In this document: positions 32,640-48,298 of the stretch, in pieces | How positions within the stretch are numbered: position 1 is the first letter of the stretch | How the letters are laid out: every line of letters starts with the position of its first letter | The notes under the pieces: generated by a model | Told to the model about the DNA's origin: nothing | The model's input: only the letters and a program-made list of their open reading frames with translations | The model's database searches: none | Source of the DNA: Cylicocyclus nassatus | Taxonomy: Eukaryota > Nematoda > Chromadorea > Rhabditida > Strongylidae | Reading direction: 5' to 3' | Assembly (NCBI GenBank): GCA_958299035.1 | Contig: CATQJL010000223.1 | Coordinates: 66,892,371-66,956,370 of the forward strand | DNA: 64,000 nucleotides | Position numbers and translations under genes: made by a program

Positions 32640-33985
32640 ATAAGAACTGTACAAACGTACAAAAATTGTTTATCTGTCCGATCAAATTGCCCTACGTGCC
32701 GCTTACAGACCAATATAACTATTCAAAGAGACAAATTATGCCCTACGTGCCGCTTGAAGACCGTTTAAAAATTATAGGAACTCCCCCAAACGTACAAAAA
32801 TCTATTTCCCTGTCCAATCGAGTAGCCCTACGTGCCGCTTACAGACCGATATAACTATTCAAAGAGACCATTTTGCCCTATGTGCCGCTTGAAGACCGAA
32901 AACCAACTACGACTCAAACAAAAAGAAAACAACAAATTCAAGTACTTGCAGCGTATTTTCAAATTGCCGTGCTTGTCCCTTTAGGGCTTTCAATTCTGAG
33001 AACTGCCCCAAGCGCACAAAAATCTGTTTCCCTGTCCGATCGGGTTGCCCTACGTGCCGCTTACAGCCGATAGTAAACATTCACTAAGGAAATTTATGCC
33101 CTATGTGCCGCTTGAAGACCGTTTAAAAATTACAAGAACTCCCCCAAACGTACAAAAATCTATTTCCCTGTCCAATCGAGTAGCCCTACGTGCCGCTTAC
33201 AGACCGATATAACCATTCAAAGAGACAATTTTGCCCTATGTGCCGCTTGAAGACCGAAAACCAACTACGACTCAAACAAAAAGAAAACAACAAATTCAAG
33301 TACTTGCAGCGTATTTTCAAATTGCCGTGCTTGTCACTTTAGGGCTTTCAATTCTGAGAACTGCCCCAAGCGCACAAAAATCTGTTTCCCTGTCCGATCG
33401 GGTTGCCCTACGTGCCGCTTACAGCCGATAGTAAACATTCACTAAGGAAATTTATGCCCTATGTGCCGCTTGAAGACCGTTTAAAAATTACAGGAACTCC
33501 CCCAAACGTACAAAAATCTATTTCCGTGTCCAATCGAGTAGCCCTACGTGCCGCTTACAGACCGATATAACCATTCAAAGAGACAATTTTGCCCTATGTG
33601 CCGCTTGAAGACCGTTTAAAAATTACAGGAACTCCCCCAAACGTACAAAAATCTATTTCCCTGTCCAATCGAGTAGCCCTACGTGCCGCTTACAGACCGA
33701 TATAACCATTCAAAGAGACAATTTTGCCCTATGCGCCGCTTGAAGACCGTTTAAAAATTATATGAATTCCCCCAAACGTACAAAAATCTATTTCCCTGTC
33801 CAATCGAGTAGCCCTACGTGCCCTTACAGACCGATATAACCATTCAAAGAGACAATTTATGCCCTATGCGCCGCTTGAAAACCGTTTAAAAATTACAGGA
33901 ACTCCCCCAAACGCACAAAACTCTGTTACCCTGCGCGATCGAATTGCCCTACGTGCCGCTTACACACCGATACCTAGTTGAAAGC
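32640..33985. repeat. Complex tandem array of 135- and 222-bp units
   Basis: Units are marked by CCCTACGTGCCGCTTACAG, starting near 32690, 32826, 33048, 33184, 33406, 33542, 33677, 33812 and 33947. Spacing is 136, 222, 136, 222, 136, 135, 135, 135. Each unit also has a sister half-repeat CCCTATGTGCCGCTTGAAG. The 222-bp units carry an extra ~86-bp block (CCAACTACGACTCAAAC and following). A 136+222 higher-order repeat of 358 bp occurs twice. The plus strand reads as PYVPLEDR...VALRAAYRPI with a stop in every unit, so it is not a protein repeat. Confidence 0.9.
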
Positions 33986-40344: not shown

Positions 40345-40405
40345 CTATAGTATGGACCCCGGCCAGATTCCCATGTGTACCTCCGCGACGCGCACGCAGC
40401 ACGTG

Positions 40406-40983
40406 CTCAGATAATCGCCGGGGGCAGGCGGCCCGCAAACTCGCGCTTTTCTGCAGGCGGTCAGCAGAAATTTGGGGCGTGGCTAAACCTTCAGCGGGCG
40501 GTACTTCCGCGTTCTGCCAGCGGGCAGCAATACAAAATTTTCTGCGAGCGCTCGTCAAATAATATCTTCCAGCGAGCGCTGGCCAAACTTTCAGCAAGCG
40601 CTCGGACTCTTTTTAGGTATTTTCGGGCGTACGTCGAGCGCAGGTAAGACTCTGTGTGGCAGAGGTGTCACCGTTGGTTTAATTACTCAAGTTTGAGGTA
40701 CTTTCTCTCAGCGGAAAGTACCTGGGGGTTGCGCGGTCCTCCACAAAGGAACGTGCGGCCCTCGAAATTTTTGCATATTCTCGCGGAAAGTCCGCGAGAA
40801 TGCGGCCACTGCGCCGCAGCTAATCCACAAAGAAACCGCGATTGTTCTTCAAGCATTCGTCTTTAATTTTGCCAACTTTCTTCCAAATTTCTGCAAGCGG
40901 GCCGCAAAAAATCAACGAACTATTTTTCCGGTGCGCGCTTGCTCAAAATTCGCATGGCCGCCTGCCCCCGGCGGTTATCTGAG
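40406..40983 (+). mobile_element. 578-bp TIR element carrying an SL-RNA gene, copy 1
   Basis: Terminal inverted repeats of about 26 bp begin CTCAGATAATCGCCGGGGGC, with the complement ending GCGGTTATCTGAG. It is GC-rich against AT-rich surroundings. The left half repeats GCGCTCG-type words. The middle carries the SL-RNA-like gene (40676-40803). Copy 2 at 41139 has exactly the same length. TG follows both right ends and precedes both left ends, and may be a 2-bp target duplication. Confidence 0.88.
40676..40803 (+). ncRNA. Candidate spliced-leader (SL1-like) RNA gene, copy 1
   Basis: SL RNAs donate a short 5' leader to nematode mRNAs by trans-splicing. The first 22 nt equal C. elegans SL1 except for T instead of C at position 12 (GGTTTAATTACTCAAG...). 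They are followed by the GT donor at 40698. The donor lies in a perfect 9-bp stem (40697-40705 with 40714-40722), as in stem-loop I of SL RNA. A second, imperfect stem-loop follows (40731-40758). Then comes an Sm-like site GAAATTTTTGC (about 40764-40774). The RNA ends in a perfect 11-bp stem with AAG loop (40777-40787 with 40791-40801). This leader, donor, stems, Sm, terminal stem order is that of nematode SL RNA. About 128 nt is slightly longer than SL1 RNA. Promoter elements were not verified. Stem II mismatches may make this copy less fit than copy 2. Confidence 0.8.
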
Positions 40984-41138
40984 TGTTCGGCGAGTGCCGC
41001 TCATTTCCCTCATGAGCAGCAAAGCATTTTTAACCCCAATGAAAACGAAATGGGGAGTGGAAGCGCTCAATTGAAACATGAGAGAAGCCTCTACAACGAA
41101 TGGAGCGCGTAAAACTTCTTCCACGATTAGATCAGATG

Positions 41139-41716
41139 CTCAGATAATCGCCGGGGGCAGGCGGTCCGCAAACTCGCGCTTTTCTGCAGGCGGTCAGCAG
41201 AATTTTGGGGCGTGGCCAAGCCTTCAGCAAGCGGTACTTTTGTGTTCTGCCAGCGGGCAGCAATACTAAATTTTCTGCAAGCGCTCTGCAAATAATTTTT
41301 TTCAACGAGCGCTGGCCAAACTTTCAGCAAGCGCTCGGACTCTTTTTACGCGTTATCGGGCGTACGTCGAGCACAGGTAAGACTCTGTGTGGCAGAGGTG
41401 TCACCGTTGGTTTAATTACTCAAGTTTGAGGTACTTTCTCTCAGCGGAAAGTACCTGGGGACTGCGCGGTCCTTCATAAAGGACCGCGCGGCCCCCGAAA
41501 ATTTTGCATATTCTCGCGGAAAGTCCGCGAGAATGCGGCCATTGCGCCGCAGCTAATCTATAAGAAAACCGCGATTGTTCTCCAAGCATTCGTCTAGAAT
41601 TTCGCTAAAATTATTCCAAATTTCTGCAAGCGGGCCACAACAAATCAGCGAACTATTTTTCCGGTGCGCGCTTGCTCAAAATTCGCATGGCCGCCTGCCC
41701 CCGGCGATTATCTGAG
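41139..41716 (+). mobile_element. 578-bp TIR element carrying an SL-RNA gene, copy 2
   Basis: Same ends (CTCAGATAATCGCCGGGGGC ... GCGATTATCTGAG, here fully complementary) and same length as copy 1, in direct orientation 155 bp downstream. Interior differences are scattered substitutions, so the copies are separately diverged, not an assembly duplicate. Confidence 0.9.
41409..41536 (+). ncRNA. Candidate spliced-leader (SL1-like) RNA gene, copy 2
   Basis: Leader, GT donor (41431) and stem I are identical to copy 1. Stem II is a perfect 11-bp helix here (41464-41474 GCGCGGTCCTT with 41479-41489 AAGGACCGCGC, loop CATA). The Sm-like site reads GAAAATTTTGC (about 41497-41507). The terminal 11-bp stem is 41510-41520 with 41524-41534. 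The 50-odd nt upstream are almost unchanged from copy 1, as expected if they hold a proximal promoter element. With all three stems intact, this copy is the better candidate for a functional gene. The function is inferred from architecture only. Confidence 0.85.
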
Positions 41717-42388
41717 TGGGTGCGTGTGTAAAACTTCCGACCATGGCAGAATGGTTAAGAAGTAGCAGATAACAACAAGCATATTCTAAAACGTTTTCTG
41801 TCTGTAAAGAAAGAAAAATGTATGGAACACATTTGCATTAACAGTCCTGACTGACCTATTCAAAAACCATTGACTCGGAAACGTGTGTCCTCTACAGAAT
41901 CGAAACTAATCCTTATTTGTGAGTGGTAGGAACGATGAGTAGTAGCAATAAATGTAGTTACGCTCCCCCTATACACTGTCGGAATGATTGTCTACTTCAA
42001 AGCTTAAAAGAGCAGATATCCATGACCACGAGCAAAACATATGTGATCAGCAATGTTAGTTTTGAATATCGCCTAGCGAATAGCAAAATTGAAATATAAG
42101 AAGCGCTAGAGAAGTAAGCAGTAATGAATCTTAGATCTTAATTGTCGGGAAAAAAACGAAAATTGTATGAGACAAAAACACTCCGGCTTCTGATGCACCC
42201 AAAAGTTCGTCACGACTACTATATTATATCGCTGGAACTCAAAATAAAGAGATTAGAGAGGAAGAACATCAAACCAAAAGAAAACAAGAAATATCAACAC
42301 AACATGGAACGAGAATGGCATTGAAGGCACGCGCTGCGGGTGCGTCGCGGAGGTACCTATGGGAAGCTGGCCGGGGTCCACACTATAG

Positions 42389-44777: not shown

Positions 44778-46380
44778 AAATACAAAACCCTGTTAGTAAG
44801 TGTTGTTTTCTTCTTAACGCTAGAAGTTTGATAAATAAATTGACCCAACTCCACCATCTTCTTTCCGAATCGAAACCTGCACTTGTAATGATTACGGAGT
44901 CGTGGCTGACCTCAAATATTTCTGACGGTGAGATATGTGGAGGTCTTCCATACGTATTGATTAGAAAAGATCGATCGGGAAGAAGGGGGGGGGGAGGGTG
45001 TGTGCTCTTACCCACAGTGCCATTCTTTTTAAAGAAGTCACGTTTTCTCTTAAGGGTCTCGTATCAGACCTTGTTTGTTTTGATTGCATATGTGAGAATT
45101 CCTGTTTGAATAATTATCGATTCATTCTGGCCTATCAACCGCCTTCGAGCACTGCGGGACAGGACGATCTGCTTGTGTCCTTGATATCTGATCTGGCATC
45201 CTCTTGTAAATCAATAGTGGTTTTGGCGGGAGATTTAAATTTGGATATTGACTGGTCCAATAATACTGCTATGAATTCTAGTTCAAGAAAGTTTCTTTCT
45301 ACTTTTGAGGCATTGAATATGTTACAACATGTTCGATTTTCCGCTCGAGGAGATCGTATACAGGGTGTCCCAAAATAATGTGCACACTGTTTGATTGTTA
45401 ATAGCTCTCTTGTTATGATGTCTTTCGAGAAGCGGTAAGCGCCATTTTGCAGAGCTGGCTTCAACTTAGATTTACAGTGTAGAGCGAATCACCGACTACT
45501 CTTCATTATTGTAGGATTACGGTAGAAACTTGGAACATATGGTGTCACTGTGAAAAAGCTGCCGTTTCAAAGATTTTCAAAAAATTGTGAAAACTTGTGT
45601 AATAGGGTTTTTATGGACGCTGAGTTCAATACTCAACTATTCACAAGATTGCGAAACTTTCTAAACGTTGTAACCGCATTTTTTAGGAACATTGAAAAAA
45701 TGACCGCTACTGCCTATCTGGCATAACTCTTCAATGAAGCATCATATTAAGTTGGGAACTTCTCAGTTAGAATTAGCAACTCTAATTGGCCTAGTGTAAA
45801 AGTTTTCAGGTTGTTTTGTTTTCTTTCTGCGGCAAAATATGACCTTTCATGGCCCAAAACCCTCTTTCAAGTTTCTACCGTAATCTTACAGTAACGGAGA
45901 AAGATGGACGATCCGCTCTATTTTGTAAATCTAAGTTGAAGCAAGCTCTACAAAATAGCGCTTACCGCTTATCGAAAGACCTCATAGTCGGAGAGTTATT
46001 AACAATCAAACAGTGTGCACATTATTTTGGGACACCCTGTATTAGATGTTGTGCTGACAAATACAGAGTCTTTCGCAGACTTTTCGTTACATCCACCTCT
46101 GGGCGATTCAGATCATAACATTGTTGGATTTTCTATGTTGATTGCAAATGGAGAGCTGCCTGAGACCTCGTACTTAGACTTCAAGCATGCCAGAGTAGAT
46201 CAGATCAAATCTCTCTTATCCTCTCTTGACTGGTTCGAAATTTTCGATGGTTTCTTGGATGTAAACGATGTCTACACCCGTTTCCTTTGTGTCTTACGTG
46301 CAATCATAAATCAATATGTGCCACGTAGGACTCGTAGGCAGGGCGTAGTAGAATATCCCGACCACATTCATAAACCTTTT
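44778..46380 (+). pseudogene. LINE endonuclease domain, frameshifted and split
   Basis: The first piece contains LLNARSLINKL and VMITESWLTSNI (about 44811-44925), the start of an apurinic/apyrimidinic-type endonuclease that nicks target DNA. A G-run near 44990 shifts frame. FILAYQPPSS and VVLAGDLNLDIDW (45123-45258) follow. The reading is interrupted at 45360 by the Tc1-type element and resumes at 46042 with VVLTNTE and GDSDHNIVGFS, the conserved SDH motif. Confidence 0.85.
45361..46039. mobile_element. Tc1-type non-autonomous element inserted in LINE
   Basis: 679 bp with inverted repeats of about 150-190 bp beginning CAGGGTGTCCCAAAATAATG, flanked by TA on both sides (45359-45360 and 46040-46041). 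Removing the element and one TA restores the endonuclease frame across the site, so this is a clean TA-target insertion. Relatives: 1-438 and 36865-37389. It has no transposase. Confidence 0.93.
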
Positions 46381-48298
46381 CGACCAGAGACAGAGAATTT
46401 TTGAGCAGTCTCGTGATCCACTGCACAGCGTAACTTTTAAAACGGTTAGCCAAAACCTTGCATATCATTTAAAGAAGTTTATGTCCTACAGAACCAGAAT
46501 GCTCTCTAAGACCAAATACATGAGGGGGATCATTTCTTATATCAAGGACAAAATAAAACGGTCGTCCTCTCAACCAGTGCTCATAGGTAAAGATGGTTCC
46601 TACTGCAGTGCCGATTTTGAAAAAGCGGAGGCCTTCGCTAGCTTTTTTCACAGTCCCTTTTCTTTCCACATGGAATGCCATAGCAACCCAACAAAAGTAA
46701 CAGATGAGAGCTTTCGTTTGCCAATTATCACCCCCGAGATGGTTGCAAAGCAAATTAAAGCTCTGAAAATGTCGCAGTCGGTTACCTCGGACGGCATACC
46801 GCACACATTTTACAGAATGTTTCCCACCCATCTTTTCGTTCCTCTAAGCCACATTTTTAACATTTCTCTAATGACAGGGGAAATCCCTAATCCATGGAAA
46901 GCTGCAGCTGTCACACCTATCCCAAAAGGGAAGGAATCTGCAACGATTAGCAACTACCGCCCGATCAGTATCCTCCCTACATCATTGAAGGTGCTTGAGA
47001 GGATCATTAAGAAACATTTGCTTGAATGGTTAGAACACCTAAATCTCATTCCCATGGAACAACATGGATTCCTAGCAGGATCTTCCACCTGTTCACAGTT
47101 TGGATTGTTCTTTCCGTTGGAACAAGGCATTGGGTGAAGGGAAAGGGGTGGATGTAGTTTACTTCGATCTTAGCAAAGCCTTTGATACCGTTTGTCATGA
47201 GTGCCTTGTGGAGAGATTGAGGTGTATAGGCATAGAGGGCAATTTACTAAATTGGTTTCGATCCTATCTTGAGGACAGAAAGATGATAGTGCGCTTCTCT
47301 TGTGACTTTTCCTTCCCTAGGGAATGCCTATCGGGCGTTCCACAGGGAGGGATTTTGTCGCCCATACTTTTTCTTATATACACACACATGATTTACCTGC
47401 TTTTCTTAAAACGGATACAAGGATTTTTGTGCATGCGTACGCGGATGACATCAAAGTCACTGCAGTCTATAGTGAAACAGAAAAAGAAGCAGTTCAGCAG
47501 GCTTTGGCGAAATCTGTCGAACGTATGTTGCAGTGGACAAATTTTTGGCATCTCAAAGTCAATTTTCGTAAAAGTCAGCATCTCCCCATAGGATCGCTTT
47601 CACTGCACGTTTATAACAATGAGCTAGGTGATATGTTAGTGAGCAGGGAAGTTCGTGATCTTGGCGTGCTTGTTGGCATGGTTTGAACTTTGAGAGCCAT
47701 ATTGACGCGGTAGCGGCCAAGGGCTTGAGGGTTTTGCACTGTCTTTTCAGAAATGTTGCGAGTTCTGATCCTTTTCTTTGGATCAAACTTTTCATAATGT
47801 TCGTGTTGCCACTGATTGAATACTGCGGCCCTGTATGGAGTCCTTATCGCTCCAAGGATATTAACGAAATTGAAAGTGTGCAGAGGACGTTTACCAGAGT
47901 ACTCTACTACCGAGTCTTTCCGGACCCAAGCTATCCGCAGGGTCTACCCCCATATAAAGTTCGCCTGCGCGAGTTGCACCTCAAGAGTCTTTTTTTACAG
48001 AAGGGTAGAAGCTGACTTGATTTTAGCCTATAAGATTCTCAAAGGGGAACTTCGTTTAAAGCCCTCAAGCTACTGGGCGTTTCGTCCGGTATACGGACGG
48101 CATGGCGGTTTTGCCTTTCGACTCAAGCTACCGAGCGCAAATCGTCTGAGGTGTACGAGTTCCTTCTTTTTCAGAGTCGCCAAGTGGCTGGAACGTTTGC
48201 CTACTACTCTTTTATGCCTTAAAAATTCAGCACACTTTAAAATTGCCATCCGAAAAATGGACATTCTGCAAGTGCTAGGCATACGTGACGTGGAATGA
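46355..48298 (+). pseudogene. LINE reverse transcriptase, frameshifted
   Basis: Segments in order: KAAAVTPIPKGKE and NYRPISILPTSLKVLERII (about 46898-47010), LIPMEQHGFLAGSST (47047-47091), VVYFDLSKAFDTV (about 47155-47193), LSGVPQGGILSPILF (about 47328-47372), the catalytic HAYADDIKV (about 47432-47458), and the post-core region ending about 48298 (LIEYCGPVWSP, QRTFTRVLYY). Frame changes separate these pieces. Target-primed reverse transcription is the known role. This copy cannot encode it. Confidence 0.9.

Follow-up and report, generated by a model that had tools for sequence, protein, structure and literature searches.

A terminal-inverted-repeat transposon with the layout of an SL1-like spliced-leader RNA gene in the strongylid nematode Cylicocyclus nassatus

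Introduction

Can a spliced-leader (SL) RNA gene be the cargo of a transposon? The question is raised by a stretch of 64,000 nucleotides from the genome of Cylicocyclus nassatus, a parasitic strongylid nematode of the horse gut (NCBI GenBank assembly GCA_958299035.1, contig CATQJL010000223.1, positions 66,892,371 to 66,956,370 of the forward strand; this whole stretch is referred to as the window). A first-pass annotation, made from the letters alone, had pointed to two elements bounded by terminal inverted repeats (TIRs), each containing a leader that resembles nematode SL1, and had proposed a mobile SL gene that could spread a variant leader. Known SL RNA genes form tandem arrays or small dispersed families. 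Tandem arrays are also described in PMC12582326 (papers given by PubMed Central, PMC, number are cited from excerpts of their texts). Here we report that the two elements belong to a non-autonomous DNA transposon that carries the layout of an SL RNA gene, and we weigh what the predicted RNA may do.

Results

SL1-like genes within two elements of the window

The two elements are 578 bp long, lie in direct orientation with 155 bp between them and are 91.9% identical to each other (the coordinates of their parts are collected in Table 1). The TIRs, first given as 26 bp, were recovered in both copies, that of copy 1 being slightly longer. A scan for the 22-nt leader GGTTTAATTACTCAAGTTTGAG located it in both elements; no further site within 3 mismatches was present elsewhere in the window, and none appeared in 100 shuffles. 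The leader differs from nematode SL1, as quoted for Haemonchus contortus (PMC7652881), only at position 12, where T replaces C, exactly as the first-pass annotation had claimed.

The leader is followed by a GT donor lying in a stem, a second stem, an Sm-type A/T site (AAATTTTTG in copy 1, AAAATTTTG in copy 2) and an 11-bp terminal stem. Folding of both copies agreed with this previously described SL RNA order, the only correction being that the donor stem comprises 11 pairs, not 9. The predicted folds contain three stems (z of -7.5 and -9.2), and none of 200 shuffles of either copy was equally stable. In these folds the donor pairs with downstream bases, and only the last two bases of the leader take part.

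At the gathering score, Rfam gave no match in either element copy. Below it, full-length matches to the SL1 family (model positions 1-103) were obtained in both copies, with 18.0 and 18.5 bits and E values of 2.7 and 2.1 (1321 bases searched). The tandem SL1 genes of the host genome also fall below the gathering score (37.5 versus 75 bits), and the failure of the elements to reach it is therefore uninformative here. A search of a phage collection gave no match.

Copy number and mobility of the element

Exact counts were made in the assembly (514.7 Mb), where the leader GGTTTAATTACTCAAGTTTGAG followed by GT occurs 1047 times, a second leader (type B, GGTTTTATTACCCAAGTTTGGG) followed by GT 282 times, and the exact 26-base TIR end 2820 times; the reversed control of each of the three gave 0. 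A 132-nt query of the SL gene returned 1290 first-look candidates, 40 of which were scored, yielding 42 rows; 40 of these were full or nearly full length, at 96-100% identity. When 28 of the first 30 loci were aligned (L014 and L015 were left out), the edges of the element proved to be sharp.

Identical 2-bp flanks were found at 53 of 61 distinct two-ended copies in the fetched DNA. At outward-shifted offsets the same comparison gave 1-5 of 61, and a 3-bp duplication was seen at 1 of 61. The duplicated bases vary, CA/TG being the commonest, and some elements are inserted within one another. Forty sites, taken from 100 listed ones and all located on contig C1, were picked with the exact leader and its GT as the sole criterion, and all 40 lie in the element; both ends were present at the expected spacing in 31 of them, with a 2-bp duplication in 29 of these 31. 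Two loci, L075 and L076, have common flanks and probably represent one insertion duplicated along with its surroundings.

The copy number, the 2-bp duplications and the nesting identify the element as a genuine non-autonomous DNA transposon that contains an SL RNA gene, and at the level of DNA they bear out the earlier proposal of a mobile SL gene spreading a variant leader. The non-specific 2-bp duplications are reminiscent of the CACTA-like group, which may be a pointer to the superfamily.

Ordinary host SL genes that merely sit in repeats, with no transposon family behind them, might be thought to give a similar picture, given that the canonical SL1 genes of the host are themselves multicopy, in 680-bp tandem arrays (C1:30138576-30172831 and C1:31608642 onward). 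Such genes would not be expected to show sharp-edged TIRs, non-specific duplications, nested insertions and more than 1000 dispersed copies. Moreover, the canonical leader was the element's own in 0 of 30 fetched canonical-leader loci; that of L061 (C1, approx. 28390237-28390851) lies in an insert that splits an SL element near its position 335-339. The duplications and the nesting contradict this explanation, to which we attach next to no credence.

A wider family with the same TIRs

The flanks of loci chosen by their SL gene had suggested that every TIR relative carries one. The family was also sampled by its ends. From the first 33 of 100 listed hits (of the 2820 in the assembly), 21 hits representing 20 sites were used; the 12 skipped hits comprised 6 copies already sampled by leader, 3 in a nested cluster and 3 left out for no reason. 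A recognisable SL gene was present at 7 of the 20 sites, which overturned the earlier reading. The proportion of 7/20 understates the SL-bearing copies, because those already sampled by leader were left out.

Eight further sites (L121, L123, L124, L127, L129 and L133-L135) belong to an SL-free family of 305-321 bp with the same TIRs and with 2-bp duplications in 8 of 8 cases. The other five sites contain a diverged copy, fragments, deletions or another interior. Deletion derivatives were also encountered: L128 has lost the middle of the element, including the leader, and L097 most of the SL RNA. The SL gene is thus the cargo of a wider TIR family.

Conservation of two stems in source lineages

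Retention of the gene was analyzed mainly in a set of 20 copies termed SL-blind, because the SL sequence played little part in finding them; 13 came from the flanks of fetched loci (including copy 1 of the window) and the other 7 had been sampled by TIR. Strict blindness was not achieved, as the 13 copies flank SL-chosen loci and the leader-fetched TIR hits were left out. Removed from the set were L025_129 and L026_2540, which are the query hits of a neighbouring locus, and L026_1821, a duplicate of L025_606; one earlier conservation table still includes the three. L078, whose 3' half is not element, was left out of the alignments. The tree was built without 9 of the 40 leader-sampled copies, which lacked both ends at 560-610 bp, and without the 13 of the 20 TIR-picked sites that have no recognisable leader.

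Donor, Sm site and stems I and III are intact in 16 of the 20 SL-blind copies. When GT, the Sm site and at least 10 of 11 pairs in both stems were required, 11 of the first 13 SL-blind copies and 15 of 19 leader-sampled copies qualified. Mutating the consensus at the full body divergence of each copy left 3.1 of 13 copies intact on average, and 0 of 4000 simulations reached 11. This simulation overstates the case because it treats shared changes as independent, and for this reason changes were placed on a tree by parsimony. The mask used in the branch test consists of stem I after the donor, the Sm site and stem III (60 sites).

With 45 copies, 74 changes fell in the mask on terminal branches (ratio to the element body 1.00) and 11 on internal branches, i.e. 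0.39 of the body rate (Fisher p=0.0033); when the mask was slid along the element, at least 20 internal changes were found in 300 of 300 placements. With 52 copies the internal ratio was 0.54 and the terminal ratio 1.10 (p=0.0061), and in the 20 SL-blind copies the corresponding values were 0.35 and 1.27 (Fisher p=0.0005), with 0 of 300 slid placements as low in either case. The signal stems from stems I and III, which taken alone in the SL-blind set have internal ratios of 0.23 (p=0.0024) and 0.21 (p=0.026), respectively. The TIRs also have few internal-branch changes (0.16-0.25), a value that is partly built in, because copies are recognised by their ends, and that provides no independent yardstick. 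A test of leader constraint within the SL-chosen samples was dropped as circular.

At the level of DNA, these results show that the donor stem and the terminal stem were kept in the lineages that yielded further copies, and that new copies decay neutrally after insertion. Random decay of donor, Sm site and stems, which the first-pass annotation had named as speaking against its proposal, therefore describes single copies; in the source lineages the donor and terminal stems were kept, the Sm site alone not measurably so.

Leader types

The SL-blind copies carry several leaders: 6 have exactly that of the window (type A, with T at position 12), 5 are one base off type A, 6 have the exact B leader and 2 a third type, GGTTTRATTACCCGAGTTTGGA, the remaining copy being decayed. 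The length of 22 nt and the following GT are kept in all except the decayed one (19/20). The B and third types agree with SL1 in having C at position 12, and the T seen in the two window copies is therefore probably derived.

At 37 sites in the genome the exact variant leader stands without a following G. Inspection of 20 such sites assigned 18 to elements whose donor is altered, missing or displaced: for 15 there was an automatic match on either side, and for L147, L151 and L154, with a match on a single side, the assignment was made by eye. The other two, L141 and L142, lie in other DNA, and L142 resembles the long terminal repeat (LTR) contexts described below.

Host SL1 genes and other DNA with canonical leaders

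The SL1 arrays of C. elegans are linked to 5S genes; in a unit of the C. nassatus array (L064) no 5S gene was recognised (Rfam, E up to 1). In the predicted fold of the host SL1 RNA the leader pairs with the donor, an arrangement that is typical of nematode SL RNA and not required. The stretch AAAATTTTG.ATAT.TCT is common to the element consensus and the host SL1 RNA, and 0 of 500 shuffles scored as high.

Canonical SL1 leaders were also observed in DNA of other kinds. L072 (C1:4820000-4829999) and L074 (C1:13825000-13834000) are LTR retroelements with the exact canonical leader plus GT in both LTRs. The LTRs of L072 measure 339 bp and are 98.8% identical, those of L074 657 bp and 99.7%; judged by their frames, both elements appear to be BEL/Pao-like. 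In L042-L061, an ATAAA-like stretch precedes many of the dispersed canonical leaders, in a context similar to these LTRs. In L073 (C1:31164600-31167100), canonical leaders and GTACCTGAAGT-like units occur in both orientations, in places 65-82 bp apart, forming a leader-derived, palindromic, satellite-like array.

Features of the window

Both SL elements are surrounded by a larger TIR-bounded stretch, which is listed last in Table 1. Elsewhere in the window there is a tandem array (32652-33972) with units of 135 and 358 bp, and a decayed retroelement (46352-47591) whose reverse-transcriptase matches are split over frames. The window also contains a gene for the ribosomal protein eS1; the product of its three joined exons is 99% identical to that of Ancylostoma ceylanicum and, across the full 217 residues aligned, identical to the C. 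nassatus gene model, which is extended at its N-terminus and is missing two stretches.

Table 1. Positions in the window of the two SL elements, their parts and the enclosing inverted repeat
Feature	Position	Strand	Basis
Element copy 1, non-autonomous TIR transposon with SL RNA gene	40406..40983	+	TIRs, copy alignment, TG/TG flanks
Copy 1 left TIR	40406..40433	+	28 bp, 96% complementary to 40956-40983
Copy 1 right TIR	40956..40983	-	inverted-repeat match
Copy 1 left target-site duplication TG	40404..40405	.	sequence; partner 40984-40985; rule from 53/61 copies
Copy 1 right target-site duplication TG	40984..40985	.	sequence
Copy 1 SL1-like leader, 22 nt, T for C at position 12	40676..40697	+	leader scan
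Copy 1 GT splice donor, within stem I	40698..40699	+	sequence, fold
Copy 1 stem-loop I, 11 bp, buries donor	40696..40723	+	fold; conserved on internal branches
Copy 1 stem-loop II	40724..40763	+	fold; unconstrained
Copy 1 Sm-type site AAATTTTTG	40765..40773	+	sequence; unconstrained on its own
Copy 1 terminal stem-loop III, 11 bp	40777..40801	+	fold, inverted repeat; conserved on internal branches
Element copy 2, 578 bp with SL RNA gene	41139..41716	+	TIRs, copy alignment, TG/TG flanks
Copy 2 left TIR	41139..41164	+	26 bp, 100% complementary to 41691-41716
Copy 2 right TIR	41691..41716	-	inverted-repeat match
Copy 2 left target-site duplication TG	41137..41138	.	sequence
Copy 2 right target-site duplication TG	41717..41718	.	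sequence
Copy 2 SL1-like leader, 22 nt	41409..41430	+	leader scan
Copy 2 stem-loop I, GT donor at 41431-41432	41429..41456	+	fold
Copy 2 stem-loop II	41457..41496	+	fold, inverted repeat
Copy 2 Sm-type site AAAATTTTG	41498..41506	+	sequence
Copy 2 terminal stem-loop III	41510..41534	+	fold, inverted repeat
Outer 62-bp inverted repeat (89%), ends near TATAG; encloses both SL elements	40345..42388	.	inverted-repeat search

Discussion

What the predicted RNA may do

We put at roughly 0.6 the probability that the cargo of this transposon is an SL1-like gene whose RNA would fold as predicted, bind Sm proteins and donate the variant leader in trans-splicing. A bolder proposal, advanced here with more hesitation and at somewhat short of even odds, is that a selfish transposon makes its own SL small nuclear RNA (snRNA) and would act as a mobile trans-splicing donor, one that spreads and diversifies the T12 and B leaders and competes with or supplements host SL1.

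Several results weigh against a trans-splicing RNA. Private divergence alone would leave 9.8 of 13 copies intact, close to the 11 observed (P 0.33); as private mutations by themselves explain the current intactness, single copies decay freely, and whatever was retained was retained in their ancestors. In the SL-blind set, no constraint on internal branches was detected for the Sm site alone (ratio 0.88, p=0.78), the leader (0.99, a value biased against conservation because exact A leaders are underrepresented in this set), stem II (1.38) or the 60 nt upstream (1.50). The whole 126-nt RNA, when pooled, has 104 terminal and 39 internal changes, with an internal ratio of about 0.82, and the three-part grouping of the mask was fixed after earlier conservation tables had been inspected. 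Covariation is weak: 3 two-sided pairs were found against a shuffle mean of 1.6 (87 of 500 shuffles as high), and the covariation score, matched by 6 of 500 shuffles, is of a kind that relatedness can produce. No clear case of an mRNA retrocopy with the variant leader was found in the 20 of 37 sites without G. Finally, the 126 nt upstream of the element gene show no significant similarity to those of host SL1 genes, an equally high score being reached by 128 of 500 shuffles. The lack of constraint on the Sm site alone has lowered the weight that we give to both of the proposals above.

With the Sm-site stretch in common with host SL1 RNA and nothing significant upstream, the element gene would be an old or strongly altered derivative and no fresh copy.

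One alternative is a passive cargo: an SL gene would have been captured once by a TIR element and amplified along with it, its RNA being either not made or not used, and the two stems would have been conserved by chance or because DNA hairpins have a role in transposition. The unconstrained leader, Sm site, stem II and upstream region, the neutral decay of individual copies, the upstream DNA unlike that of host SL1 and the existence of copies with most of the SL RNA deleted (L128, L097) all fit this alternative. It accounts poorly for the internal-branch constraint, which affects stems I and III but spares the longest hairpin, stem II, and for the 16 of 20 SL-blind copies that keep donor, Sm site and both stems; we regard it as unlikely, while giving it real weight.

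A structured decoy or regulatory RNA, which would bind proteins of the SL/Sm ribonucleoprotein (RNP) and take no part in trans-splicing, would agree with the constraint on two stems and not on the leader, and with the stem that buries the donor, which is more stable than its counterpart in host SL1. Such an RNA would have no use for the 22-nt length and the GT that are kept in leaders of the A, B and third types, nor does the unconstrained Sm site favour it, and we consider it highly improbable.

The history of the element gene may be pictured as follows. An older TIR element would have captured an SL RNA gene, its gene-free relatives surviving as the family of about 320 bp; the SL gene would then have been amplified along with the TIR element, presumably moved by a transposase supplied elsewhere. 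The predicted RNA would assemble into an Sm RNP and make its leader available for trans-splicing. The retention of two stems, against a background of drift in the remainder of the element, suggests that the RNA was probably produced and of use during the expansion of the family, either because it helped the element or because hosts tolerated SL-like copies; each new copy then decays neutrally after insertion.

Comparison with other systems

Nematode SL1 RNA genes (Rfam RF00198 and the host arrays) and the element gene are alike in the 22-nt leader (one base off), the donor in a stem, the second stem, the Sm-type site, the terminal stem and the AAAATTTTG.ATAT.TCT stretch. The element gene differs from them in lying dispersed within a TIR transposon, in a donor that pairs downstream and not mainly with the leader, in a longer, G+C-rich stem II and in upstream DNA without significant similarity. 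With miniature inverted-repeat transposable elements (MITEs) and other non-autonomous TIR DNA transposons it has in common a short TIR element, target-site duplications, high copy number and subfamilies, whereas the presence of an snRNA-type gene, with two stems conserved in source lineages, sets it apart. Repeats derived from non-coding RNA are reportedly small-RNA genes spread by retroposition; in contrast, this element moves as DNA, with TIRs and 2-bp duplications, and not by reverse transcription.

A further parallel comes from a flatworm survey, which set aside 597 candidate loci associated with mobile elements and having partial leaders only (PMC12582326). These loci are similar in that an SL sequence lies within mobile DNA, whereas the present element holds the full SL RNA layout inside a DNA transposon. 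The survey filtered out candidates near mobile elements and afterwards rescued close matches (PMC12582326); SL genes of the kind described here could thus be missed by design. Excerpts of other papers give SL1 and SL2 sequences of related worms (PMC5833154, PMC7652881), mention degeneracy of Haemonchus SL1 and SL2 (PMC7652881), set out criteria for SL genes (PMC7986045) and report trans-spliced transcripts of retrotransposons or transposable elements (PMC3315495, PMC12220107). Among the matches listed from the open-licence PMC literature, as excerpted, none describes an SL RNA gene located within a TIR or DNA transposon, and the exact variant leader was not found in that literature.

A DNA transposon that carries an SL gene is a route by which leaders may multiply, vary and reach new places in the genome, and it could help to explain the diversity of nematode leaders. 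The element of C. nassatus thereby provides a case in which the contribution of a mobile element to a widespread step of mRNA processing can be tested.
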